A stretch of DNA of 64,000 nucleotides. Origin: Gimesia alba. GTDB taxonomy: Bacteria > Planctomycetota > Planctomycetia > Planctomycetales > Planctomycetaceae. Location: contig NZ_CP036269.1 of the NCBI RefSeq assembly GCF_007744675.1, forward strand, positions 6,889,917-6,953,916, given 5' to 3'. Below are positions 6,060 through 59,359 of the stretch, one piece after another. Position 1 is the stretch's first letter, and every line of letters starts with the position of its first letter. The notes below the pieces were generated by a model. It was not told the DNA's origin, did not search any database, and saw only the letters and a program-made list of their open reading frames with translations. The position numbers and the translations under genes are program-made.

Positions 6060-6135
6060 TGAGCGGAATGGCGCTAGCCACCGGTTGTTCTATTCAGCGT
6101 GCTATAAAAAACGGCGGCTAGCGCCGTGCCGCTCA
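6060..6135. repeat. CTAG palindrome, copy 1 (intact)
   Basis: An imperfect 76-bp inverted repeat. The left arm starts TGAGCGGAATGGCGCTAGCC; the right arm is ACGGCGGCTAGCGCC.. ending CCGCTCA. The ~27-nt centre is unrelated. CTACCA just outside the left arm is shared with flanks of other copies, and a decayed CTACCACGAAA repeat lies at 6024-6044. Other copies: 11818-11895 (intact), 48913-50486 (split by an IS), 50739-51011 and 59086-59359 (split by a MITE-like element). Confidence 0.8.
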
Positions 6136-11775: not shown

Positions 11776-12167
11776 TTTTTTTACTACCACGAAAATACGC
11801 GTAACGGATACCAATTGTGAGCGGGTCGGCGCTAGCCGCCGTTTGTGAGTTCGGTTACCTGATTTAAAAAACGGTGGCTAGCGCCGACCCGCTCATGGTA
11901 GGTCACTTTTTCGTGGTAGTAAATAAAAAACAACACATATTCTAACATACACTGCTTTTTTCCTCATATCAAACGTTTCAAGAATGTTGATTTGTTCGTG
12001 GATCTGGCTGGAGAAGTTGTTTTTGCTGGAAGGTGGCTAAGTTGTGGGGAACTCTCTATAGTGTCTTGCAAAGAATTTTTTAACTGTATTCTGCAATTGA
12101 GACTGGTATTTGGGCCGGTGTTCAATCGTTTGGTTTTTCCCTCTTCAACTTAATTAGTGTGTGATCC
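11776..12167. other. Intergenic region: compound repeat, then promoter region of mqnD
   Basis: The first 150 bp are nested inverted repeats (CTACCACGAAA arms around the CTAG palindrome, described separately). From about 11930 to 12167 the DNA is AT-rich and probably holds the promoter for the mqnD-nadB run. I could not name specific boxes. No small gene was recognised. Confidence 0.45.
11780..11924. repeat. CTAG palindrome, copy 2, inside CTACCACGAAA arms
   Basis: The best-preserved copy. The inner palindrome spans 11818-11895: TGAGCGGGTCGGCGCTAGCC on the left, GGTGGCTAGCGCCGACCCGCTCA in two pieces on the right. It is enclosed by outer arms TTACTACCACGAAAA (from 11781) and TTTTTCGTGGTAGTAA (to 11923). 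The whole 145 bp can therefore fold as one long hairpin, or two nested ones. It lies 4 bp after the miaA stop and could also act as a transcription end, though no T-run is placed for a standard terminator. Confidence 0.75.
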
Positions 12168-48288: not shown

Positions 48289-48930
48289 TCGAAATCGGCT
48301 GCAATTTCGAGCAACTCTGCTGGTTTAATGTAGGAGCGAGTCGATGTACTCGCTCGCCTGGCAACATCCAATTCACAACGGAACCAGATAAAAACTGCCC
48401 CCATCATGAATCGCGTGTGACACTGCTCGGCTTGCCCGACAGTGCCGTGATTTCACGCTCTTCACCTCTGAACCTGACCAACCTCCTCCTGAAGAAATTG
48501 CCCTTGATCGCATCGCGTCCCTCGGCATGATCATGCGGAGATAACGTCGCGCGCGTGAGCGAACACTACAGATTCAGTCGATATGAAGAACCACTGAGAA
48601 CACCAGCACCACAAAACCCGCTTGTTTCAGCGACATTTTCCAAACCTCTGCTCCCATGCACCCCCGTTTTCATGCGACATCGCAGGCCATTTTTCCGCAA
48701 TCCCAGAACTTCATAGAACGATCCCAGCCAATCACATGACGTTCCCGGAGAAAACAAGCAATGCTCCCTTGACTCATTCCCGCCCTTGTTGAAAATCCAT
48801 TTCACAAACATGATTTCATCCCTATTTAAGAGCTGCCCCATGCCCCACCGCGCGAAGCACAAACAAGATGCCAGTTCAAATAGTAACAAAAAAAAACATC
48901 GGCTTAAGTATCATGAGCGGCACGGCGCTA
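48289..48930. other. Repeat-rich intergenic region
   Basis: About 640 bp with no convincing gene. It holds a small hairpin GCGAGTCGATGTACTCGC (48336-48353), a diverged palindrome (48414-48450) and, from 48913, the left arm of the CTAG palindrome cut by the IS element. A possible 20-codon frame on the minus strand (48574-48636) is listed apart. A 107-codon minus-strand frame (48566-48889) overlaps it and looks non-coding. Confidence 0.5.
48574..48636 (-). CDS. Possible 20-residue hydrophobic peptide
   Basis: A minimal open frame (MSLKQAGFVVLVFSVVLHID, 20 aa) starts 8 bp after AGAGG. The peptide would be a short hydrophobic helix with a Lys near the N-terminus, as in known small membrane peptides. 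Nothing else supports it, and such frames occur by chance. Very low confidence. Confidence 0.2.
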   Translation of the reverse strand: MSLKQAGFVVLVFSVVLHID

Positions 48931-50424
48931 GTAACTCCGCTTACAAATAGTTTCCCACCACGGCGAATTGTTGCCATTGTTTCCTGGTTTTCCGGAGTTC
49001 TCTCCAGGTGCGTGGGCGTTCGATCTGCTGCTGCTTTGTGCGGTGTCCGGTGTAGGTCCAACGCATAGGACGGGCCATGTGCTGGTTGAAGTATTCAATG
49101 AAGTTCTGCAGTTTTTCGATCAGGTCCTGTTTGGAGGTGAAGCTGCCTCGACGCAGTGCCCGACGTTTAATGATGCCGAATACGATTTCGATCTGGTTCA
49201 ACCAGGAACTGTGCTTGGGCAGATAAATAAAGCGGATGCGATGCGCTGGATTGGTCAGGAACGCACGCCGACTGGTCATTGTTTTCAACACACCCTGCCG
49301 TTTTACTTTTCCCAGATGGGCCGGATTGATTCCCAGTTGCTGCGCTACCAATTCGACGAGTGGCGCGCCGCAGTGCGTGTTTAAATTGTCGACAACGAAC
49401 ACCCAGCCTGCCTGTGGATCAGTGGCGATCGTCTGCGCGATGTGACGGGCGAAATCGTGGTTGTCGCGCGTTTCGGTAATCGTCGTGGCCAAGAGTTGTC
49501 CTTGTACCACATGCCAGTTGGCTGTCACGCACACAGCGCCATGACGGGTATACTGAAACTCTTCCCTGGCCGATTGTCCGGGACGTGGCGGTTTTGTCTC
49601 AGCCCGCCGTTCGTTGGCCTGCAGGCTGGTCATTTCATCAATGCAGACCGTGTGAGTTCTTCGCTGGTCATACAACTGTGGCGCCTCATGGTAAGTTCGG
49701 CAGACCGTTTCTACCTGCCGCTGAAACAGCTCAGGATCTTTCTCGGTGGTATTGCACCAGTAGCGGCTGCGATGAGGCTTCAGATTCACTTCACGCAAGA
49801 TCCGATTCACATGGCTGGCGGAAATCGAATCGACCAGTTGACGCCGTTGTGCTTCGTCGGCCAGTTCGGCTCCCGTCCAGGAGGTCACTGGTCGCCCGCT
49901 GTTCTGGGGCTTCTCACAGGCCAGTGAAATCAGTCCCGTAATCTGTTCGTCAGTAAAACGTCCTGGCGATCCGCTACGGGGCGCGTCGCTGAGGGTATCA
50001 ATGATCGCCCGTTGGAAGGCACTCTGGTTGAGATTGAACTGCATCTGCAGGAGTGCCTGATAGGAGTCCCGCCAGCGACGCCGCCAAAGTCCGACCGTTT
50101 TAGGGCAGCGTTCGACAGTGTCTGAGATGGTCTGATTATCAAGCTTGTTGAATGCGAGTAAAATAATCCGGGCTCGCACAATAATTGCCCGGCTGGCATT
50201 CCGACTCGCAGCCAGTTGCGATAAAATCTGATGCATACTCGACGTCAATTCAATATGGGCAGCCTTGCCTGACATTGCTCTTCCCTGGTTCTGATGGGCG
50301 AGGTGAGATTCCTCATCAAACCTCGGAAGAGCATTTTTGTCACCAGCAATCTGGTGGTCTACAAAAAACAGGGAAACAACGTAAAAAAACTTTCTGGTAG
50401 GAACGAACTTAAGAGCGGAGTTAC
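48931..50424 (-). mobile_element. Complete IS630-type insertion sequence, 1494 bp
   Basis: Ends defined from the sequence: left GTAACTCCGCTTACAAATAG, right end the inverse of GTAACTCCGCTCTTAAGTTC. The first 11 bases of both ends are identical and about 20 of the first 29 agree. It is flanked by a TA on each side (48929-48930 and 50425-50426), the target duplication expected of IS630/Tc1 elements. It carries one transposase gene whose stop codon lies inside the left inverted repeat. Both ends and the gene look intact, so it may be active. Confidence 0.93.
48941..50275 (-). CDS. IS630 family transposase (DDE)
   Basis: A 444-aa transposase. An N-terminal helix-turn-helix region (about 25-75, ISDTVERCPKTVGLWRRRW) for binding the ends is followed by a second DNA-binding part with GSPGRFTDEQI, and a DDE catalytic domain with the three acids in TVCIDEMTS, FVVDNLNTH and SWLNQIEIVFGIIKRR, the usual IS630/Tc1 spacing. 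Length is on the long side for IS630. The gene appears intact. It lies in the left-to-right inverse of the element, with its stop in the left terminal repeat. Confidence 0.93.
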   Translation of the reverse strand: MSGKAAHIELTSSMHQILSQLAASRNASRAIIVRARIILLAFNKLDNQTISDTVERCPKTVGLWRRRWRDSYQALLQMQFNLNQSAFQRAIIDTLSDAPRSGSPGRFTDEQITGLISLACEKPQNSGRPVTSWTGAELADEAQRRQLVDSISASHVNRILREVNLKPHRSRYWCNTTEKDPELFQRQVETVCRTYHEAPQLYDQRRTHTVCIDEMTSLQANERRAETKPPRPGQSAREEFQYTRHGAVCVTANWHVVQGQLLATTITETRDNHDFARHIAQTIATDPQAGWVFVVDNLNTHCGAPLVELVAQQLGINPAHLGKVKRQGVLKTMTSRRAFLTNPAHRIRFIYLPKHSSWLNQIEIVFGIIKRRALRRGSFTSKQDLIEKLQNFIEYFNQHMARPMRWTYTGHRTKQQQIERPRTWRELRKTRKQWQQFAVVGNYL

Positions 50425-50738
50425 TAGCCGCCGTTTGTGAGGTAGGGTTCCAAAATCAAAAACGGTGGCTAGCGCCATTCCGCTCACAGTAGGTCACCTT
50501 CATTTTTCAAGCGTAAAAAAAGGAATCCAACCCACACAAGCAAAATCCTACCAGATCTCACCGGCAACACCGCAGATGAACACACCCCACCAGGCGTGAA
50601 TCTATCTCCCCTGTATCCTCCGAGCGGGTTCAAAAAGTAGGGGCTGCCCCATGTGTCAGCCCGCCGGGCGGAGACCGATCAAGATTCACGTTCAATTGGG
50701 AGCAGGAATAAACATTCAATCGTCTGCCCACAAATTCA

Positions 50739-51011
50739 TGAGCGGAATGGCGCTAGCCACCGTTTTTGAATACAGGGCCCCAACACAAAAACGGCGGCTA
50801 GGTAGCGTTTCTTAATTCGAACGTTGGCTACCCAAGACATCCAACCGGGGCTAACGCCCTGCGGCTAGTGGCTTTTTTTGCGGTCATAGTCCAAGAAACA
50901 AAGGCAATATCACACCATCGGCTACGGTTTGATCTTATATAACTCACTCTGTCGACCGCAAAATCACGCTCAATACTATTAAATAAACACTACCTAGCGC
51001 CGTGCCGCTCA
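50739..51011. repeat. CTAG palindrome, copy 4, split by a MITE-like element
   Basis: Left part 50739-50801 (TGAGCGGAATGGCGCTAGCC ... ACGGCGGCTAG) and right part 50994-51011 (CTAGCGCCGTGCCGCTCA). Removing the insertion and one CTAG restores the right arm seen in copy 1 (GGCGGCTAGCGCCGTGCC). Confidence 0.88.
50802..50993. mobile_element. MITE-like element, copy 1 (192 bp)
   Basis: A non-coding element with imperfect terminal inverted repeats: GTAGCGTTTCTTAATT at the left and the inverse of GTAGTGTTTATTTAAT at the right. CTAG is duplicated on both sides (50798-50801, 50994-50997). The middle shares long blocks with the copy at 59149, such as CCGGGGCTAACGCCCTGCGG and TGCGGTCATAGTCC. It has no transposase and needs one in trans. 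A 4-bp CTAG duplication recalls IS5-type targets, but the parent element is not in the window. Confidence 0.82.
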
Positions 51012-51061
51012 CAGTAGGTGACCACTCATTTTCAATCCAGTGAAATGAAACCTCTCTCTCA

Positions 51062-51367
51062 TCACTGCCCGGCCTGATCTTCCATCATCTGGCGGCTCTC
51101 CTGCATCGCCGCTTCCCAGTCTCCTTCGCGGGCCTGCGTGATCATTTCGTTCAACCACTGTGCCTCACTCTCGTTGATCTCGTTCTGTTCCAGCGAACTC
51201 TGAATCAGTTTCTCAACCACGAGTAACCGTTCTTCACTTTTCTGATTACAAACCGAATACAGGGCCTTCGAAATCTCATACGTCTTGGGTGACACTTCCG
51301 GATACCCACAACCGGAGAGCAGCAACAAGACGAGAACAACGTGCCATTTCAACCATTGCTGTCTCAT
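51062..51367 (-). CDS. Small lipoprotein after DUF1559 gene
   Basis: A 101-aa lipoprotein. The signal peptide ends in lipobox LLSGC (about Cys20). The mature part is helical and acidic (VVEKLIQSSLEQNEINESEAQWLNEMI, AREGDWEAAMQESRQMM). It does not resemble the TTR-like lipoproteins elsewhere in the window and matches no family I can name. It begins 1 bp after the DUF1559 stop, and its ribosome site GGGGAG lies inside the end of that gene, so translation is coupled. Confidence 0.8.
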   Translation of the reverse strand: MRQQWLKWHVVLVLLLLSGCGYPEVSPKTYEISKALYSVCNQKSEERLLVVEKLIQSSLEQNEINESEAQWLNEMITQAREGDWEAAMQESRQMMEDQAGQ

Positions 51368-51368
51368 C

Positions 51369-52442
51369 TTAAAACTCCCCAATCACTTCGCCTTCGCTGA
51401 TACTTGACAGCTCGGCCCATAAAATGAGATCGATATTCTCAGAAACAAATCGGACTGAACCATCTCCCAGACAGACATGCCCACCACCAATATGCTCGGA
51501 ATACATCTGCCCCACATGGAACGTGGGAAAGTTGACCGGGTGAATGATCGGAAAACCGGTAATGTCCAGCTCACCCCCCGACGGTCCTGCATGAATTAGC
51601 GCCAGTGTCGCCGCCGCATCGGGACCATTTTCCGGCGTGGAAAACCGGGGATGAGTATATGCTCCCGGCACCACGCCGACCCATGTTTTATCGCTCAGTT
51701 TCGAAGAGTGTTCGCCCAGAAAGATTGTATTCGATAAGCCATCGGTCACATCCCGCATCTTCGTCCGTGAGTTCCGAAAGAAGGGCCCGTCTGCGACCTT
51801 CGAAGCATCGCCGTTAATCGTCACCGTCTTGGTGGTTTTAGTGTAAATGTCCGTAAAGATCACGCCCGTGGTACTCGCCCCACAGTCCCCCCAGCACGAT
51901 TCCTGACCATGACTAGCTACGTAATGCGAACGACCAAACAGCAATTGAGCGCCCCCCATCAACAGCGGACTCCCGCCGGAATCCTGCACCACAAACGGCT
52001 CATCCCCGCCCGATGATGTCGGGCATAAAAAAACTGTCAGCTTCGTCTGGGCCGCACTCGCATTCACCAGATCCCAACAGGGCCGATTCACATCAAACGC
52101 GTTATACAGGGGGGCCTGATCCAGATAAGGCAGCAGCATCGCCGCCCATGTCCAGCCTGGTGCCGCATCCCAGGTCTGCGGATCAATGTTGGCCCAGGCC
52201 GGCCCCGAACCATCGCTGGTGCCATACGAAAAGTACCCCGCGGGGAACGCGGAATGGGTCTCGTGATAATTGTGCAACGCAATCCCGATCTGCTTCAGAT
52301 TGTTCTTACACTGACTCCGCCGCGCCGCCTCCCGCGCCTGCTGCACCGCCGGCAGTAATAGCGCAATCAAAGTCGCAATAATCGCAATCACCACCAGCAA
52401 CTCAATCAGCGTAAACCCGTTGCGGGCTCGAATCTGTTTCAT
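51369..52442 (-). CDS. DUF1559 protein with pilin-like N-terminus
   Basis: A 357-aa member of the same family as those at 35457 and 39111. A leader ending RARNG is followed by [20 protein letters not shown], the prepilin peptidase-type segment. [54 protein letters not shown] and the C-terminal [21 protein letters not shown], ending GEVIGEF, follow. It has a longer middle part than the other two (insert near 175-215). The ATG at 52442 gives a short leader; a start at 52451 is the alternative. It heads a two-gene unit with the small lipoprotein. Confidence 0.92.
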   Translation of the reverse strand: MKQIRARNGFTLIELLVVIAIIATLIALLLPAVQQAREAARRSQCKNNLKQIGIALHNYHETHSAFPAGYFSYGTSDGSGPAWANIDPQTWDAAPGWTWAAMLLPYLDQAPLYNAFDVNRPCWDLVNASAAQTKLTVFLCPTSSGGDEPFVVQDSGGSPLLMGGAQLLFGRSHYVASHGQESCWGDCGASTTGVIFTDIYTKTTKTVTINGDASKVADGPFFRNSRTKMRDVTDGLSNTIFLGEHSSKLSDKTWVGVVPGAYTHPRFSTPENGPDAAATLALIHAGPSGGELDITGFPIIHPVNFPTFHVGQMYSEHIGGGHVCLGDGSVRFVSENIDLILWAELSSISEGEVIGEF

Positions 52443-52495
52443 AATCAACAACCTGATCCATTTTCAAAACGGGGATAAGGGGCGGGTAAATAAAA

Positions 52496-52538
52496 TGTAG
52501 CCAGCGCTACATTCACGCATATTGTAGCCAGTGCTACA
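52496..52538. repeat. Two tandem palindromes TGTAGCCAGYGCTACA
   Basis: TGTAGCCAGCGCTACA (52496-52511) and TGTAGCCAGTGCTACA (52523-52538) lie 11 bp apart, each with arms TGTAGC/GCTACA. They precede the DUF1559 gene on the minus strand. They could be paired binding sites or a pair of short dispersed repeats. Confidence 0.55.
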
Positions 52539-52719
52539 TTCGTGTCAATCACAAAACAGAAAAAACTTCAACTACGGAACCGTAGGGGCGGCGCCTGTGT
52601 GCCCGCCCGCCTTGCGATATACGATCCGGATTTAATCTGAGAATGGAACCAGTAAAAGTATTCTTCATTTAAATACGGTCCCGCCCCAACGCTTTTCCTG
52701 ACAAAAAAGAAAAATTATC

Positions 52720-52771
52720 TTGACAAACAGACACTGTGTTACTCTAATAACACATGTTAATAGAGTAACAC
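52720..52771 (+). promoter_or_regulatory. Promoter with two tandem BlaI-type operators
   Basis: -35 TTGACA (52720-52725), 17-bp spacer, -10 TCTAAT (52743-52748). Two adjacent 18-bp dyads cover the -10 and the start site: GTGTTACTCTAATAACAC (52736-52753) and ATGTTAATAGAGTAACAC (52754-52771), each TGTTA/TAACA-like with a 6-bp centre. The outer arms GTGTTACTCT/AGAGTAACAC also form a perfect 10-bp dyad across both. This is the expected position for the repressor encoded right behind it. Confidence 0.8.
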
Positions 52772-52821
52772 GTCAAAATGAATTTCTCTTTTGTAATGGT
52801 TCCAGAATTTCAGCAGGATGA

Positions 52822-53220
52822 ATGATGGCGAAACCAGCGTATTTGAATCTGGGGGCCCGGGAGCGGCAGATTATGGATGCCGTTCATGAATTGGGCGAAG
52901 CTTCCGTTGCCGAGGTCCATGAAAAATTGACCGACGCGCCCAGTTACACCACCGTCCGCACCATGATGCGGGTGCTGCAGGAGAAGGGGCATCTCAAATT
53001 TCGCCGCGAGGGGGTGAAATACATTTACCGCCCGACCGAGGCACCGGCGAAGGCCCGTAAATCGGCGCTGCAGCATTTACTGAAAACGTTTTTTAGCAGT
53101 TCGACCGGCGACGCTGTCGCTGCGCTACTCGATATGTCGGGGGACAAGATGTCTCCGGAGGAATACGAACGTCTGGCGAATCTGATCGAAGATGCCCGCC
53201 GCGAAAACAAAAAGAAATAA
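52822..53220 (+). CDS. BlaI/MecI/CopY family transcriptional repressor
   Basis: A 132-aa winged-helix repressor. The N-terminal half has the BlaI/MecI pattern: LGARERQIMDAVHELGEASVAEV, then YTTVRTMMRVLQEKGHLKFRREG, and YIYRPT at the wing. The C-terminal helices (LQHLLKTFFSSSTGDAVAALL, SPEEYERLANLIEDA) are for dimerisation and match the family. It starts with ATGATG after AGGA. A perfect tandem operator lies upstream, so autoregulation is likely. It is 10 bp before the M56 gene; in studied pairs the M56 sensor cleaves the repressor. Confidence 0.93.
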   Translation: MMAKPAYLNLGARERQIMDAVHELGEASVAEVHEKLTDAPSYTTVRTMMRVLQEKGHLKFRREGVKYIYRPTEAPAKARKSALQHLLKTFFSSSTGDAVAALLDMSGDKMSPEEYERLANLIEDARRENKKK

Positions 53221-53230
53221 CAGGTGAATC

Positions 53231-56200
53231 ATGTTCAACGATCTGCTGTCACTGCCCGGCCTGGAAAACTGGTTTGCCATCGATCTCGCCGTTAAATCCA
53301 CGCTGTTAGTGGCGTTGGCCGCCGGACTCCGGCATCGTGTCTGGACCCTGTTATTCCTGGCCCTGCTGATCCTGCCGCCGGTGACACTGTTTGCTCCCGG
53401 CTGGAACTGGCAGGTCATCCCCCGTTCCTGGCAAGCGGAAAAAAGCGAAGACGCGATTCCCGACGCAATCCCTGTTACTACTTCGGTTCCTTCAGGCATT
53501 GAGCCCGAGCCGTCAGCGCTGCCGATGACTCCAAAGATCACACGCGCCGTGGATCAAACCGAACCCACACTTCAGTCTCAACTGGTTCCCGCCGTTTTCG
53601 AACAGGAAACGCATCATGCGGTTGCTTCAACCCCCGCTCCCATTCCGAAAATCATTCAACCAGCGACATTCGACTGGTCAAAGCACACGTTGGCACTCAT
53701 CTGGCTGGGTGGTTTCCTGCTGATGTTGCTCCCGCTTATAACGGGACTCTGGGGAAACGGGCGACTGCGAAAACAGGGGCAGCTTCTGGATAGCCCTGAT
53801 TGGCAACGAATGATGACGGAATTGAGCCACCGGCTCGGCTTACAGCGTACCATCACGCTTTTATCTGGCGGACCTCAGCAGATGCCAATCACGTTCGGCC
53901 TGAGGCACCCATGTGTCGTGCTACCCGATGATGCCGCCAACTGGGACGAAGAGCGACGGCAGGTGGTTCTGCTGCACGAACTCGCGCATATCAAACGTTT
54001 CGATGTGCCCCTGCAGATGATTGCCCGCCTCGGCTGTGCGCTGTTCTGGTTTCATCCACTCGTCTGGTGGTCGGCTCGTCAGATGCGTCTCGAACGCGAA
54101 CACGCGTGCGACGACTGTGTCTTACTCGCCGGCCAGGAACCCTCCGTCTATGCCTCGCACTTGCTGGAGATTGCCCATCAGCTTTCAAATCAAACGCGTT
54201 TCACGACGGCGGCGCTGTGCATGGCTCGGAAATCCCAACTCGAAGGCAGACTGCTGGCAGTTCTCGATACTCGCCGCAGTCGCGCCCAGGTCGGAGTCGT
54301 CCGCACACTGGGCTGCCTTTCTCTGGCACTTCTGTTGGTGATCACATTGGGAATCGTGCATCCCACACTGCAGGTGGAGTCCTTATTGACGGCAGCAGAA
54401 AAGGAACCAGCATCGGCGACTCCAAAAACCGGATCGGAAGAGTATCAACTGATGCGAATCACCGGCACGGTTCTTTCGCCGGACGGAGAACCGCTGTCGG
54501 GGGCACACATTGATCTCTTCACTGACAATCGTGGCACCAACTGGCATCGCAGAATTCCGGGAGTTGATGATTTCGAATCCCATCAGACAACAACCAATGA
54601 GACTGGCTGGTTTCAGATCGTGCTGCCACACGATATTTCCCGTCCGCGCAAAGATATGCAGATCATCGCCAGCGTCGCAGGCGGTCTGCTGGCGAAAGAA
54701 ACCATTGATCCCCATCTGCCGCGCCATCATGTCGAACTCAAACTTTCCGCTGCCAAAAAAGTACGCGTACAATTGATTGATACGGTTGGAAATCCGATTG
54801 TCGGCATCGAACCCTACCTGAGCGGCATAAGCCTGGGCAAAAATTCTTATATCAATATTCGCCACCCCAAGCCGGACTCGCTGGTCGCCGCGTGGCCTCG
54901 CTTTACCAAAAGCGACGACGAAGGCTACGTCGAAGCGATGCTCCCTACTTCGACAACCACGCTCAGACTCTTAATTGACGACAAACAGGTAGGGGCGCAC
55001 GCATTAGATGTAGAAATTTCTGATAAGCCAATCAGCGTCGCGCTCAAGCCGGCACAATTTCTGGACGGAAAAGTCATTGATGAAACTACGGGCCAGCCGA
55101 TCGCCGGGGCTGAAGTGATGATCCTCGAACGACCTTATCGAACAACGCGTACCAAGGCCGACGGCAGTTTTCGCGTAGCACGTGGGGAAACACTCGGAGG
55201 ACTATTTCCATCGGGACAAAATATCCTGCACGTGTATCCTCCCTCGGAATCGGCTTATCTGTTCCATGCACATGAATGGAAATGGCCCAATAATAGACTC
55301 AGTGATGCGAACTTAACGATCAAAATGCGGACCGGTATTGTAATATCAGGGAGAGTCACTGAAAAAGGGACGGGAAAACCGGTCCCGAAAGTGGCTCTCG
55401 CATTTGAATCACAGGAATACAATAATCCTCTGTTTGATGAGACGTCGCAGTGCCGTTTTTTTGGCGCCGATATGAAGTATGCCACCGATGCAGACGGGCG
55501 ATTTCAGATGCCGGTCTGGCCTGGTCCCGGATACCTGATCGTCACAGCGCCGACGCTCGATTACGTGCATCAGGAGATCAGCCTGGGAGACAAATACTAC
55601 GGCAAACCAGGGCTGCAGCGTGAATATTACGACGCGGCAGTCCGGCTCAACCTCAAACCAGCGGCTCAGCCTGAGCCAATGGAGATTATCTTAGAACGTG
55701 GTGAATTACTCAAACAGAAAATCATTTGCCCCGATGGCCAGCCGGCGAACGGAAAAGCGTATGCCCGTTCCTACATTCCGTTCAAAAAAGAAATCGATGC
55801 CAGCTTGCCTGTAATACTGTTTGAAAACGGGCAATTTGAACTCCCCGGTTTTCATTCGAAGAAATCACTGCCGCTCCTGTTCGTCGATTTAAAACATCAC
55901 TGTGGAAAAATTGTCACCGAGTTCCCTCCGGACGACGCCCCCATTCAGTTAGAACAATGCGGCGCGGCCACGTTTCAATTTGAAGATAATAACGGAAAGC
56001 CACTGGCAGATCATGAACCATTATTGATGATCATCGTAACGCCGGGAGCAACGAATACTGCCTTCATCCAGCCTGACCAACCACTCTGGTTTGAGCATCT
56101 GTTCTGGCAGAACATTCTGTGGCCTAAACGAATTTCCAAAACAAACGCGGAGGGACGCGTGACGGTCAATGACCTGATCCCCGGTGCCACGTACCAGTTA

Positions 56201-56299
56201 CAGTTTATCAAAAAAGGGCGTTGGGCCAGCGGCTACGAATTCACCGTTCGCCCCGGCGAAACCACCGATGTGGGTAAGGTCGTGCTGGAGCTGCAATAA
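53231..56299 (+). CDS. M56 (BlaR1/MecR1-like) membrane protease with long TTR-like C-terminus
   Basis: A 1022-aa protein. The N-terminal ~380 residues are an M56 peptidase with membrane segments near 15-50, 149-175 and 355-378. Zinc site HELAH is at 249-253 in LLHELAHIKRFD, with the third ligand region LEREHACDDC. The rest (about 390-1022) is a row of carboxypeptidase-regulatory-like/TTR beta domains, starting near 413 (TGTVLSPDGEPLSG), 612 (GKVIDETTGQPIAGAEV) and 705 (SGRVTEKGTGKPVPKVAL). BlaR1 has a penicillin-binding domain at this place; here none is seen, so the ligand sensed outside must differ. It lies 10 bp after the repressor gene and 54 bp before the DUF1800 gene. Confidence 0.9.
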   Translation: MFNDLLSLPGLENWFAIDLAVKSTLLVALAAGLRHRVWTLLFLALLILPPVTLFAPGWNWQVIPRSWQAEKSEDAIPDAIPVTTSVPSGIEPEPSALPMTPKITRAVDQTEPTLQSQLVPAVFEQETHHAVASTPAPIPKIIQPATFDWSKHTLALIWLGGFLLMLLPLITGLWGNGRLRKQGQLLDSPDWQRMMTELSHRLGLQRTITLLSGGPQQMPITFGLRHPCVVLPDDAANWDEERRQVVLLHELAHIKRFDVPLQMIARLGCALFWFHPLVWWSARQMRLEREHACDDCVLLAGQEPSVYASHLLEIAHQLSNQTRFTTAALCMARKSQLEGRLLAVLDTRRSRAQVGVVRTLGCLSLALLLVITLGIVHPTLQVESLLTAAEKEPASATPKTGSEEYQLMRITGTVLSPDGEPLSGAHIDLFTDNRGTNWHRRIPGVDDFESHQTTTNETGWFQIVLPHDISRPRKDMQIIASVAGGLLAKETIDPHLPRHHVELKLSAAKKVRVQLIDTVGNPIVGIEPYLSGISLGKNSYINIRHPKPDSLVAAWPRFTKSDDEGYVEAMLPTSTTTLRLLIDDKQVGAHALDVEISDKPISVALKPAQFLDGKVIDETTGQPIAGAEVMILERPYRTTRTKADGSFRVARGETLGGLFPSGQNILHVYPPSESAYLFHAHEWKWPNNRLSDANLTIKMRTGIVISGRVTEKGTGKPVPKVALAFESQEYNNPLFDETSQCRFFGADMKYATDADGRFQMPVWPGPGYLIVTAPTLDYVHQEISLGDKYYGKPGLQREYYDAAVRLNLKPAAQPEPMEIILERGELLKQKIICPDGQPANGKAYARSYIPFKKEIDASLPVILFENGQFELPGFHSKKSLPLLFVDLKHHCGKIVTEFPPDDAPIQLEQCGAATFQFEDNNGKPLADHEPLLMIIVTPGATNTAFIQPDQPLWFEHLFWQNILWPKRISKTNAEGRVTVNDLIPGATYQLQFIKKGRWASGYEFTVRPGETTDVGKVVLELQ

Positions 56300-56353
56300 A
56301 CAACAGAGTTCAAAAATGAAACTTGTGACGTTCCCGATTCAAGAGGTAGATTG

Positions 56354-57745
56354 ATGAAGTCAGACTCCGATCCCTGGGCACCCTATGTGCCGACATCTGC
56401 CGATCCGTGGAATCTGGAAAAGGTGGCCCACCTCCATCGCCGCGCCGGTTTTGCCGCGAACTGGCAAGAACTGCACCGCGATCTCAAAGCGGGACCCGCG
56501 GCGAGCATTGATCGTTTACTGCATCCGCCGCCCGCGTCCCAGAAATTCCAACGGGTGGCCGACGCACTCAAAAACATTATTGAATCTTCCGGTTCCGGTT
56601 TTATGTCGGCGGAAAGTTTATCTCCCCTGCAGTCCTGGTGGATGTTTCGGATGACTTTCGGTAGTGACCCGCTGGGAGAAAAACTGACCTTGTTCTGGCA
56701 TAACCACTTCGCGACCGCGATGTCGGGCGTCTATAACCTGAAGCTGATGCTGGATCAAAATGAGCTCTTTCGCCAGCATGCCCGCGGGAAATTTGGAGAT
56801 CTGCTGCAAGCCATCGAAGCCGACCCAGCGATGTTGAAGTGGCTCGATGGAGGTGCCAATCACAAAGAGCACCCCAATGAAAACTTCGCGCGGGAACTGC
56901 TCGAACTTTTCACGCTCGGAGAAGGGCACTACAGTGAGACCGACATTCGCGAAGCAGCCCGCGGACTCACCGGCTGGAAACCGGGGCGCGATACCCTGCT
57001 CAATGAGACCAACGAATTTTTCTACGACGAAACGTTGGTCGACACCAGTCCGAAAACATTTATGGGACAGACGGGGCCCTGGCGACGCGAAGAGATCTTT
57101 CGCATCATTCTTCAACAGCCTGAGGCGGCCAGATACCTCTGCCGCCGTCTTTATCGCTGGTTTGTCAGCGAAAGCACCGTTCCCAATGAGACCTTGATCG
57201 AACCGCTGGCCATTCAGATGCGGGCCAGCAATTATTCCATCGAACATGTGGTCGGCATCATTCTGCGTTCACAACACTTCTTCTCACCCGCCGCCTATTG
57301 GCAGCGCATCAAGTCGCCGGTCGAATTCTGTGTCGGCACGATTCGCCAACTGGAACCCAAGCGGACTCCCAACCTGTTACCGCTGGCGGCGCTGAACTGT
57401 GACAAGCAGGGACAGGCTCTGTTTAACCCACCCAGTGTCAAAGGTTGGGATGGTGGCACGGCCTGGCTCACGACGAACTGCACCCTGACCAGAATCAACT
57501 GGACCGCCGATCTATTAAACGGTAGTCAGACTTCGGGTTTAAAGGCTTACGATCCCGCACACTGGCTCAAAGAACATTCGCTGAAACCGACGCAGGCAGT
57601 GGAATCATTTTCCAAGTTGCTCCTGCAAAACAATCTGAACCCCGAATCGGCGGCACTCGCCCAACGCCTGGCAGATGGAGATCAGCGGCAACTTACCGCC
57701 GCTTTGCAGGTGTTGTTACAAACACCGGAATTTCAGTTAGCATAG
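56354..57745 (+). CDS. DUF1800 family protein
   Basis: A 463-aa protein of the DUF1800 family, usually found together with DUF1501 proteins in planctomycetes. Conserved blocks: HLHRRAGFAANWQELHRDL near the start, FWHNHFATAMSG, HPNENFARELLELFTLGEGHYSETDIREAARGLTGW, FYRRY-like RRLYRWFVS, and VKGWDGGTAWLTTN near the end. No signal peptide is evident. The ATG at 56354 has AGAGGT upstream; a TTG one codon earlier is the alternative. It ends 9 bp before the DUF1501 gene, whose ribosome site overlaps its stop. Function unknown. Confidence 0.92.
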   Translation: MKSDSDPWAPYVPTSADPWNLEKVAHLHRRAGFAANWQELHRDLKAGPAASIDRLLHPPPASQKFQRVADALKNIIESSGSGFMSAESLSPLQSWWMFRMTFGSDPLGEKLTLFWHNHFATAMSGVYNLKLMLDQNELFRQHARGKFGDLLQAIEADPAMLKWLDGGANHKEHPNENFARELLELFTLGEGHYSETDIREAARGLTGWKPGRDTLLNETNEFFYDETLVDTSPKTFMGQTGPWRREEIFRIILQQPEAARYLCRRLYRWFVSESTVPNETLIEPLAIQMRASNYSIEHVVGIILRSQHFFSPAAYWQRIKSPVEFCVGTIRQLEPKRTPNLLPLAALNCDKQGQALFNPPSVKGWDGGTAWLTTNCTLTRINWTADLLNGSQTSGLKAYDPAHWLKEHSLKPTQAVESFSKLLLQNNLNPESAALAQRLADGDQRQLTAALQVLLQTPEFQLA

Positions 57746-57754
57746 GAGACCATC

Positions 57755-59017
57755 ATGAATTTGAACCGTCGCGAATTTCTGGGACTGGGTTCCACACTGC
57801 TCGCTACCAGCGCCTCCGTTCCGACCTTCCTGAAGCAAACCGCCTTCGCCGCCGCGGGGCAGGAACCGACGTCTGACCGCGTGCTGGTCGTCCTGCAACT
57901 GACGGGCGGCAATGACGGCTTGAATACCGTCGTCCCGTTTACCAACGAAACCTACCGCAAGCTGCGACCCAAGCTGCAACTGGCCGACGCCAAACTGCAT
58001 CGACTGAATGACCGTCTTGGCTTACATCCCTCTTTGAAGGGCCTGAAACATCTCATCGACAAAGAGCAGGCCGCCATTATTCAGAGTGTCGGTTATCCCA
58101 ACCCCAACCGTTCGCATTTTGAATCGATGGCGATCTGGCATGCGGCTCCCGTCGACAAGAAATTGAATTACAAAAAAAGTGCCTACACCCGAGGCGGCTG
58201 GCTGGCCCGCGCCATCGATCAACGTTCTACAACCGCGCAACAAACAGAATCGGCGCAGGCATTAAACATTGGTGCTGGAGAAATGCCCAAGGCATTGCTC
58301 GGCAGCCGCGTGCAGGTGCCCTCGATTCAAAGTCTTGCGCAGCTCAAACAGAGCAACGGCCTGTTCGATCAAAAAACACAGCAGGCCCAGATCGCTGCCT
58401 GGAAAAATGGGGCGGGCTCCACGTCGAACCCGCTCCTGCAAGCCGCCCTGCAAAGTTCTCTCGCCGTACATACGACGGCCGAGCAGATCCGCAAAATCAA
58501 GCCCGATCAGTCCACCACGGTCAAGTATCCCGAAAACGCGCTGGCAGAACGACTCCGGATGATGGCCCAACTGATCCGCGCCGGTTTTTCCACGCCCGTG
58601 TATTACACCGAGCACACAGGCTTCGATACGCATTCGCAACAGCTCCCTTATCATCGTAATGTATTAGGGGAATTGGCACGCGCGCTCCGCGCCTTCATCA
58701 CCGATGTCAACAAACACGTTCCGAATCGGCCCGTGCTGGTTCTGGTCTTCTCAGAATTCGGCCGACGCGTGGAAGAAAACGGCAGCGCAGGTACCGATCA
58801 CGGCACCGCCGGCCCGGTCTTCCTGGCCGGCAGCCATCTCAAACCGGGAGTTCACGGCCCCGACCCCGATCTGGAAAATCTGGTCGACGACGACCCCGTC
58901 TTCGGCGTCGACTTCCGCAGTGTCTATGCCACCATCCTCGAAGACTGGCTGAACATCCCCAGCCAACCCGTTTTGGGTCAGCAGTTCGACAAACTGGATT
59001 TATTGAAGACAACGTGA
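57755..59017 (+). CDS. DUF1501 family protein with Tat signal
   Basis: A 420-aa protein of the DUF1501 family (an alkaline-phosphatase/sulfatase-like fold by distant similarity, unproven). It begins with a twin-arginine signal NRREFLGLGSTLLAT (4-18) and is exported folded. Conserved blocks: VLVVLQLTGGNDGLNTVVPF, IQSVGYPNPNRSHFESMAIWHA, GFDTHSQQ, and FSEFGRRVEENGSAGTDHGTAGPVFL (the FGR..DHG block typical of the family). It is coupled to the DUF1800 gene by overlap of stop and ribosome site. Last gene of the unit beginning with the BlaI-type repressor. Confidence 0.93.
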   Translation: MNLNRREFLGLGSTLLATSASVPTFLKQTAFAAAGQEPTSDRVLVVLQLTGGNDGLNTVVPFTNETYRKLRPKLQLADAKLHRLNDRLGLHPSLKGLKHLIDKEQAAIIQSVGYPNPNRSHFESMAIWHAAPVDKKLNYKKSAYTRGGWLARAIDQRSTTAQQTESAQALNIGAGEMPKALLGSRVQVPSIQSLAQLKQSNGLFDQKTQQAQIAAWKNGAGSTSNPLLQAALQSSLAVHTTAEQIRKIKPDQSTTVKYPENALAERLRMMAQLIRAGFSTPVYYTEHTGFDTHSQQLPYHRNVLGELARALRAFITDVNKHVPNRPVLVLVFSEFGRRVEENGSAGTDHGTAGPVFLAGSHLKPGVHGPDPDLENLVDDDPVFGVDFRSVYATILEDWLNIPSQPVLGQQFDKLDLLKTT

Positions 59018-59055
59018 GCGAGCTGTTTTTCGACTACCACGAAACACACGAAAAC

Positions 59056-59077
59056 GGGGCGACACATGGGTCGCCCC
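59056..59077. repeat. Hairpin GGGGCGAC/GTCGCCCC
   Basis: A perfect 8-bp stem with 6-nt loop, 39 bp past the DUF1501 stop. It is related to the dispersed GGGGC..ATGTGTC..GCCC-type sequences at 50638 and 52582. Only CTT follows it, so it is a weak terminator at best. Confidence 0.5.
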
Positions 59078-59085
59078 CTTGTATC

Positions 59086-59359
59086 TGAGCGGGTCGGCGT
59101 TATCCGCCGGTTTTGTGTCAGGTACGCTGGTTCAAAAACGGTGGCTAGGTAGCGTTTATTAATTCAAACTAGCCTTACCAAAGACGGCTAACCGGGGCTA
59201 ACGCCCTGCGGCTAATGGGTCTTTTCTGCGGTCATAGTCCTCAAAACAAGAGCAACAGCATACTGTCGGCCACGGTAAATTTTTACATTGATAACTCTAT
59301 AGACCACAAAATCACGCTCAGAACTAATAAATAAACGCTACCTAGCGCCATTCCGCTCA
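59086..59359. repeat. CTAG palindrome, copy 5, split by a MITE-like element
   Basis: Left part 59086-59148 (TGAGCGGGTCGGCGTTATCC ... ACGGTGGCTAG) and right part 59342-59359 (CTAGCGCCATTCCGCTCA). The left arm has lost its CTAG (GTTATCC instead of GCTAGCC). The insertion is in the right arm, at the same base as in copy 4. Confidence 0.87.
59149..59341. mobile_element. MITE-like element, copy 2 (193 bp)
   Basis: Terminal inverted repeats GTAGCGTTTATTAATT (left) and the inverse of GTAGCGTTTATTTATTAG (right), better kept than in the copy at 50802. CTAG is duplicated on each side (59145-59148, 59342-59345). It shares the internal blocks CCGGGGCTAACGCCCTGCGG and TGCGGTCATAGTCC with the other copy, in the same orientation. 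No coding sequence. Confidence 0.85.

Follow-up and report, generated by a model that had tools for sequence, protein, structure and literature searches.

A 64,000-nucleotide stretch of the Gimesia alba genome (hereafter the window; positions 6889917–6953916 of the one 7.77-Mb contig that makes up this genome) contains two copies of a miniature inverted-repeat transposable element (MITE), each within a dispersed palindrome, and a full-length IS630-family insertion sequence (IS) within a third copy of the same palindrome. The MITE copies occupy 50801–50994 (194 bp, forward strand, ends GGTAGCG..CACTACC) and 59148–59342 (195 bp, forward strand, ends GGTAGCG..CGCTACC), within one base of the positions given in an earlier reading of the letters alone (the original prediction), whose account of their ends, internal match and common orientation we confirm. 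Each is bounded by the TA of a CTAG, at 50799–50800 and 50995–50996 for copy 1 and at 59146–59147 and 59343–59344 for copy 2. The first 16 bases of the two ends are complementary at 12 of 16 positions in copy 1 and at 15 of 16 in copy 2, and no listed open reading frame (ORF) of at least 80 amino acids overlaps either copy. Because the aligned copies are identical in only 150 of 195 columns (one gap) and each has a 99% identical partner elsewhere in this genome (1321100 for copy 1 and 6302554 for copy 2), they fall into two subfamilies and are not recent sisters.

The palindrome (TGAGCGG..CCGCTCA) is about 75 bp long, with a CTAG in each arm. Both MITE copies lie in right arms, as originally described, and the split palindromes extend over 50739–51011 and 59086–59359; the arms do differ between the two, the left-arm CTAG of the second having decayed to TTAT. 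The third palindrome (48914–50486) is split in its left arm by the IS, and two empty palindromes, recognized by arm pattern and DNA fold, lie at 6060–6135 and 11818–11895, so that two palindromes of the window are empty, one contains the IS and two contain a MITE. Chance is excluded as the source of these repeats, because the arm pattern (up to 3 mismatches) matches seven times (one match, at 59336, is half MITE) against 0.00 expected from shuffles, and the folds of the two empty palindromes have z scores of −6.2 and −11.5. Genome-wide there are 68 strict arms, 60 of them with CTAG, and 16 strict intact palindromes without an insert. Three arms at 5396800–5397369 follow one another at intervals of about 273 bp, which hints at a tandemly repeated unit.

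The IS, which the original prediction did not include, lies with its palindrome 377 bp upstream of MITE copy 1. It spans 48931–50424 on the reverse strand (1494 bp) and encodes a 444-amino-acid transposase (48941–50275, reverse strand) with Pfam DDE_3 and HTH_32 domains that scores 153.6 bits against the NCBIfam IS630 model (cut-off 100). Its junctions read C-TA-GTAACTCCGC..GCGGAGTTAC-TA-G, and its transposase, terminal inverted repeats (TIRs) and TA duplication place it in the IS630 family. A PF13358 search of this genome gave four matches, one of them below the cut-off, and two are of this type; the two full copies are identical (1494/1494) and both sit inside palindrome arms. Across the genus (17 genomes, including this one), 15 of 18 readable copies (2 own and 16 from relatives) were judged by eye to lie in palindrome arms, with up to one mismatch in the arm motif and several of the relatives' copies at the ends of draft contigs; the location of three (L166, L171 and L181) is not clear. 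One relative's copy (L165, in genome G006) has outer palindrome arms on both sides and lacks the inner palindrome part, possibly through recombination of two insertions.

A MITE family at CTAG sites

We surveyed the MITE genome-wide with BLAST using each window copy (42 matches, 40 candidates scored), with its end pattern (111 matches, of which the 100 listed ones were used) and with a profile over 80 loci, which gave 88 non-overlapping hits and at least 67 two-ended copies. Near-full-length matches occur in 9 of the 17 genus genomes and matches of any kind in 13, and a scan of a genome collection with the MITE ends returned one record, an uncultured Gimesia metagenome-assembled genome (records near this genome were possibly left out). 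Over 87 copies (67 own and 20 from relatives), the TIR columns are 89.7% identical to the consensus, giving the family the terminal inverted repeats of an IS630/Tc1-mariner MITE. The left flank of the 67 two-ended copies is CTAG in 21 and CCAG in 23, the right flank is CTAG in 24 and CTGG in 20, and 12 copies have CTAG on both sides.

The original prediction took the CTAG on both sides of each window element as a 4-bp duplication. CTAG is indeed present on both sides; the duplicated part, however, is better read as TA, with element ends GG and CC. We draw this from copy 1321100, because it is flanked by TTAG and CTAG and the corresponding empty site is TTAG in the relative G007 (TCAG in the relative G016). 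Off-consensus outer bases agree with this reading. In 11 of 67 copies the left −4 base is not C, and the right +1 base matches it in 0 of 11 and is C in 10; in 9 of 67 the right +4 base is not G, and the left −1 base matches it in 0 of 9 and is G in 7, a pattern that later mutation alone could yield in part. Duplication of a TA target is not exclusive to IS630 elements.

To compare filled and empty sites, we joined the two flanks at each of 45 MITE loci and 2 IS loci and looked for the result in relatives; 33 MITE loci and 1 IS locus were aligned and judged by eye. Ten of the 33 lack the MITE and can be read on one or both sides of the junction (278121, 5659016, 1321100, 6128358, 2806952, 6302554, 1115784, 4151342, 5640756 and 4934535); at 6 the insertion is shared in whole or in part (7269965, 6278875 in G016, 2620939, 3075512, 3965074 and 2550305); and at 16 the site is absent or rearranged, the junction not being readable. 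At 3815225, G007 has another mini-element, apparently in the same CTAG, with a matching right flank and about 18 differing nucleotides on the left. Three loci show insertion into a palindrome that was already present. The palindrome of MITE 6302554 is empty in both G007 and G016, with CTAG in each; that of MITE 1115784 is empty in G016, where its right arm reads CTGG, and is mostly missing from G007; and G007 keeps the palindrome of the second IS630 copy (2065060, locus L163) empty. MITE 4151342 (L015) is inserted at the CTAG centre of another inverted repeat (CTGTCGGGCTAGCCGACAG), and G007 has that repeat without the MITE and with CGAG. For copy 2 of the window, only the palindrome itself matched among the relatives' matches listed.

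The genome-wide tabulation proposed earlier found both empty palindromes and MITE copies outside palindromes. Only 15 of the 67 copies lie in palindrome arms (13 right and 2 left); of the 52 that fail when both sides are required to match, 5 match on one side. The suggestion that the MITE very strictly chooses a CTAG inside this hairpin is too strong: its target is CTAG generally, whereas the IS630 is found almost exclusively in the hairpin. Among 20 two-ended copies at relatives' loci, 9 occupy a right arm and 2 a left arm, and at least 4 (L082, L098, L100 and L157), none of them arm copies, are orthologous to copies in this genome. Right arms predominate 22:4 across both sets (P = 5 × 10−4). 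Strict arms hold 8 of 67 copies compared with 60 of the approximately 3,885 CTAG sites of the genome (about 1.5%; P = 9 × 10−6), the genome's total being projected from the 32 sites counted in the window. At one palindrome, that of MITE 1309075 (L038), a MITE-like end is also present at the left-arm CTAG, both arms seemingly having been hit.

A putative helper transposase and competing explanations

Many two-ended copies lie at CTAG-like sites, some of these sites are empty in sister genomes, and an IS630 element uses the same target. We consider it probable that these copies belong to a TA-duplicating MITE that prefers C-TA-G and is moved in trans by a transposase of the IS630/Tc1-mariner type. 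The element, of 194–195 bp with GGTAGCG ends, would be non-autonomous; a DDE transposase, most likely of that type, would cut it out and paste it at a TA, preferably in C-TA-G, with duplication of the TA. The inverted pair of palindrome arms, which resembles a repetitive extragenic palindrome (REP), would offer a repeated landing site through the CTAG in each arm, and both window MITE copies and the window IS630 would have landed there. We infer the helper because the search for an autonomous element carrying the ends of the MITE yielded none, and we lean towards an IS630-type enzyme because the habit of landing in palindrome arms is common to MITE and IS630, the MITE's ends matching neither this IS nor the IS5-family IS described below.

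Several observations weigh against this explanation. An autonomous element with the MITE ends (GGTAGCGTTT; GGTAGCGTTTMTTAATT) was not found among the 80 loci read in this genome, the genus having been covered with one transposase query, and the earlier suggestion of an IS with these ends and a CTAG duplication likewise found no counterpart there. The similarity between the ends of the MITE and of the window IS630 is not significant (P = 0.24–0.74, shuffling), and three genomes (G004, G007 and G009) have many MITE matches and no match to the window IS630 transposase. Measured against the window's own CTAG sites, the MITE shows no excess in arms (15 of 67 compared with 6 of 32; P = 0.27). At 4918498 both flanks are CAAG, which fits an AA duplication or a 4-bp duplication; at 5659016 (CCAG/CTGG) the empty site in G007 is CCGG, compatible with blunt insertion. 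Finally, an IS5-family IS is also flanked by TA, within CTAG at locus L067.

That IS5-family element came to light in the search for an autonomous partner. End-like pairs 0.6–2.6 kb apart occur at 6 of the 80 loci, and by eye only one, L046 (1,121 bp), was convincing; it proved to be a MITE whose halves (positions 1–109 and about 115–193) are split by the IS, and it was rejected as a partner. The inserted 941-bp stretch recurs in L060 and L067, 100% identical and without the MITE. The element (1391–2511 of L046, 2588–3528 of L060 and 272–1212 of L067) has TA sites and two overlapping ORFs, with proteins that match DUF4096 and DDE_Tnp_1 and score under the cut-off for NCBIfam IS5; we take it to be IS427-like. 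Because IS630- and IS5-family elements both use TA in CTAG, the MITE cannot be assigned by target alone, and the same TA-duplicating MITE might instead be moved by an IS5-family transposase. The IS was read at three places, with TA sites, a CTAG at L067 and one insertion inside the MITE itself, all of which suit such a helper; however, its ends (GAGGGCATCTC, GAGGTTGTCTC) look unlike the GGTAGCGTTT of the MITE by eye, and its two free copies (L060 and L067) lie outside palindrome arms, where the MITE, partly like IS630, places 15 of 67 copies. For an IS5-family element with MITE-matching ends, the one IS met has other ends, no dedicated IS5 search of the genome having been made. We regard this alternative as unlikely.

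It is less probable still that the window IS630 itself moves the MITE. The two have target, palindrome and genome in common, but their ends are not significantly alike and MITE matches abound in genomes that have none to this IS. A true partner might also be expected to show visibly related ends, as does the mini-element of a second IS630-like element (L161, about 867–2090). This element measures 1,224 bp between its TAs, has ends GTGCTCCGTCA and GTGCTGTGTCA and lies at CTAG; a dispersed repeat of about 100 bp with ends GTGGAGTGTCA..TGACAAAGCAC, also at CTAG, resembles its right end at 22 of 28 positions (by eye). Since both are found at CTAG, this target is common to several TA-inserting elements, and every such insertion leaves CTAG on both sides. 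The mini-element in G007 at 3815225 is this L161-related repeat, and one abuts a MITE end at 1047764, at 1144580 and in L081. The second IS630-like element or its mini-element was seen at L161, L023 (1697), L150 and L037 (2269).

A true 4-bp duplication of CTAG, with an element ending in GTAGCG, is improbable. The 12 copies with CTAG on both sides fit it as well as they fit the TA reading, and the CAAG pair at 4918498 suits it; the off-consensus outer bases are never common to both sides, however, and at 1321100 the right flank is CTAG where the empty site is TTAG.

The original prediction favoured separate insertions over the spread of palindrome and MITE as one compound unit. Separate insertion holds at the three loci with empty palindromes, and by extension we would expect it of both window copies. 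Joint spread could account for the absence from G007 of palindrome arms and MITE at 6312495, where 4 nt separate the matching flanks, and of palindrome and MITE at the locus of window copy 1, and by eye some arms have further upstream sequence in common. Yet the 52 copies outside arms and the 16 intact empty palindromes speak against it, the empty palindromes at 6302554, 1115784 and L163 refute it for those loci, and we consider it very improbable overall. Least credible of all is that an element ending in AG..CT inserts bluntly between CY and RG (CT^AG or CC^GG) and duplicates nothing, for although the two flank states are associated (CTAG/CTAG 12, CCAG/CTGG 11, mixed 4 and 3; P = 0.009) and 5659016 offers its CCGG empty site, no palindrome arm with CCGG occurs in the 17 genomes (up to 1 mismatch), CCAG..CTGG is nevertheless found in 4 of 15 own arm copies and 5 in relatives, copy 6128358 has CCAG on its left where G007 has CTAA, and conversions on the outer side of the junction depend on G context.

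Junction decay and a REP-like core

When the MITE inserts at CTAG, each of its junctions gains a CTAGG on one of the two strands, and many of these have become CCAGG. Of 134 junctions, 43 are converted, 45 are original and 46 are in other states; converted junctions occur genome-wide (for example, at L038, L047 and L058). On the outer side, conversion is found at 4 of 16 sites where the neighbouring base makes CTAGG compared with 0 of 76 elsewhere (P = 7 × 10−4), one relative's copy (L106) being an exception to this rule. The nine youngest copies (nearest neighbour less than 5% different) have 0 of 18 junctions converted, whereas 43 of 116 are converted among the remaining copies (P = 7 × 10−4), an age trend qualified by the fact that subfamilies of similar divergence differ in conversion. 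With MITEs and the surrounding 45 bp masked, CTAGG is depleted in this genome (25 compared with 48 expected in 289 kb) and in relatives (8 compared with 23 in 177 kb), in stretches picked around repeats rather than at random; unmasked counts, which include the junctions, hide the depletion. CTAGA, CTAGC and CTAGT are not depleted in the same stretches. CCAGG is not enriched there (observed/expected 0.79 and 0.88), a misfit with simple gain of CCAGG.

The pattern resembles very short patch repair, which is described as removing CTAG in Escherichia coli and close relatives (PMC5337935, in the part available). It differs here in that Vsr was rejected as the cause: PF03852 has 0 matches in this genome, in a search that was positive in 5 of 14 control genomes.

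Within the MITE, a 26-column core (AACCGGGGCTAACGCCCTGCGGCTAA; 50843–50868 in copy 1 and 59190–59215 in copy 2, both forward) is 96.9% identical to the consensus over the 87 copies; the corresponding figures are 89.7% in the TIRs and 72.2% across the remaining interior. In an alignment of 66 copies, selected from 84 with odd ones left out, the values are 97.3%, 91.3% and 73.3%. BLAST detection may favour core-bearing copies; many copies, however, came from the end pattern. By eye the core looks like the palindrome arm ACCGGCGGCTAGCGCCGTGCCGCTCA, and we infer that core and arms form one REP family. Sequence similar to the core is present outside MITE hits too, as at loci L090 and L091 in G001 and G008, two genomes in which no match to the MITE query is better than one of 40 bp. 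A conserved RNA fold of the whole MITE was considered and dropped, since not one of the 7 pairs in the consensus shows a compensatory change. Single-copy RNA folds give z scores of −3.4 and −2.1, the 150-nt DNA fold gives −0.55, and the one Rfam match, under the gathering score (E = 0.86), lies outside the MITEs. In literature whose coverage mostly stops short of subscription journals, we found no paper with the core string and none on Gimesia MITEs. It is a tentative idea, which we hold to be rather doubtful, that the MITE serves to carry a 26-nt REP-like hairpin (AACCGGGGCTAACGCCCTKCGGCTAA) that is under selection and akin to the palindrome arms receiving it, building composite REP arrays through TA-targeted transposition, with a Vsr-independent CTAGG-to-CCAGG process in addition for which the junctions serve as a clock.

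Relation to known elements and significance

The finding is explained in kind by known behaviour, the missing piece being the MITE's own transposase. The IS630 of Shigella sonnei is reported, going by the titles of work by Tenzen from 1990 and 1991, to target the TA within 5'-CTAG-3', and it is said to prefer CTAG in inverted repeats. That element is autonomous; in Gimesia an IS630 and a non-autonomous family use one target.

ISY100 of Synechocystis, an IS630/Tc1/mariner element for which the transposase suffices, inserts at and duplicates TA in 34 of 39 products and AA/TT in 2 of 39, so the CAAG flanks at 4918498 fit an AA duplication; its TA duplication is like that of the Gimesia MITE, and the accessible part of the source describes no palindrome preference or MITE partner (PMC2170065). 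Bacterial REPs are described as hot spots for particular IS elements, other elements being named and IS630 not mentioned in the portion available (PMC1525189). GTAG-tagged REPs have been reported for Planctomycetes (PMC3733652, seen in part); the MITE end also contains GTAG, but the MITE has TIRs and a TA duplication rather than the form of a 20–40-bp tagged hairpin. It is thus unlike the short GTAG-tagged hairpins of REP/REPIN elements moved by RAYT, a comparison made on the element and not on a search for a Y1 transposase. Elements of the IS1272 type replace an inverted repeat, as far as the available part of PMC5678879 describes them, whereas in Gimesia the palindrome is kept on both sides of the insert and empty palindromes align through.

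Together, these elements provide a comparative case of target choice, with an IS630 mostly in one palindrome, a MITE at CTAG more broadly and orthologous empty sites for comparison. MITE copies of different age also display the decay of CTAGG, and could aid the search for mutation or repair bias in Vsr-negative bacteria.

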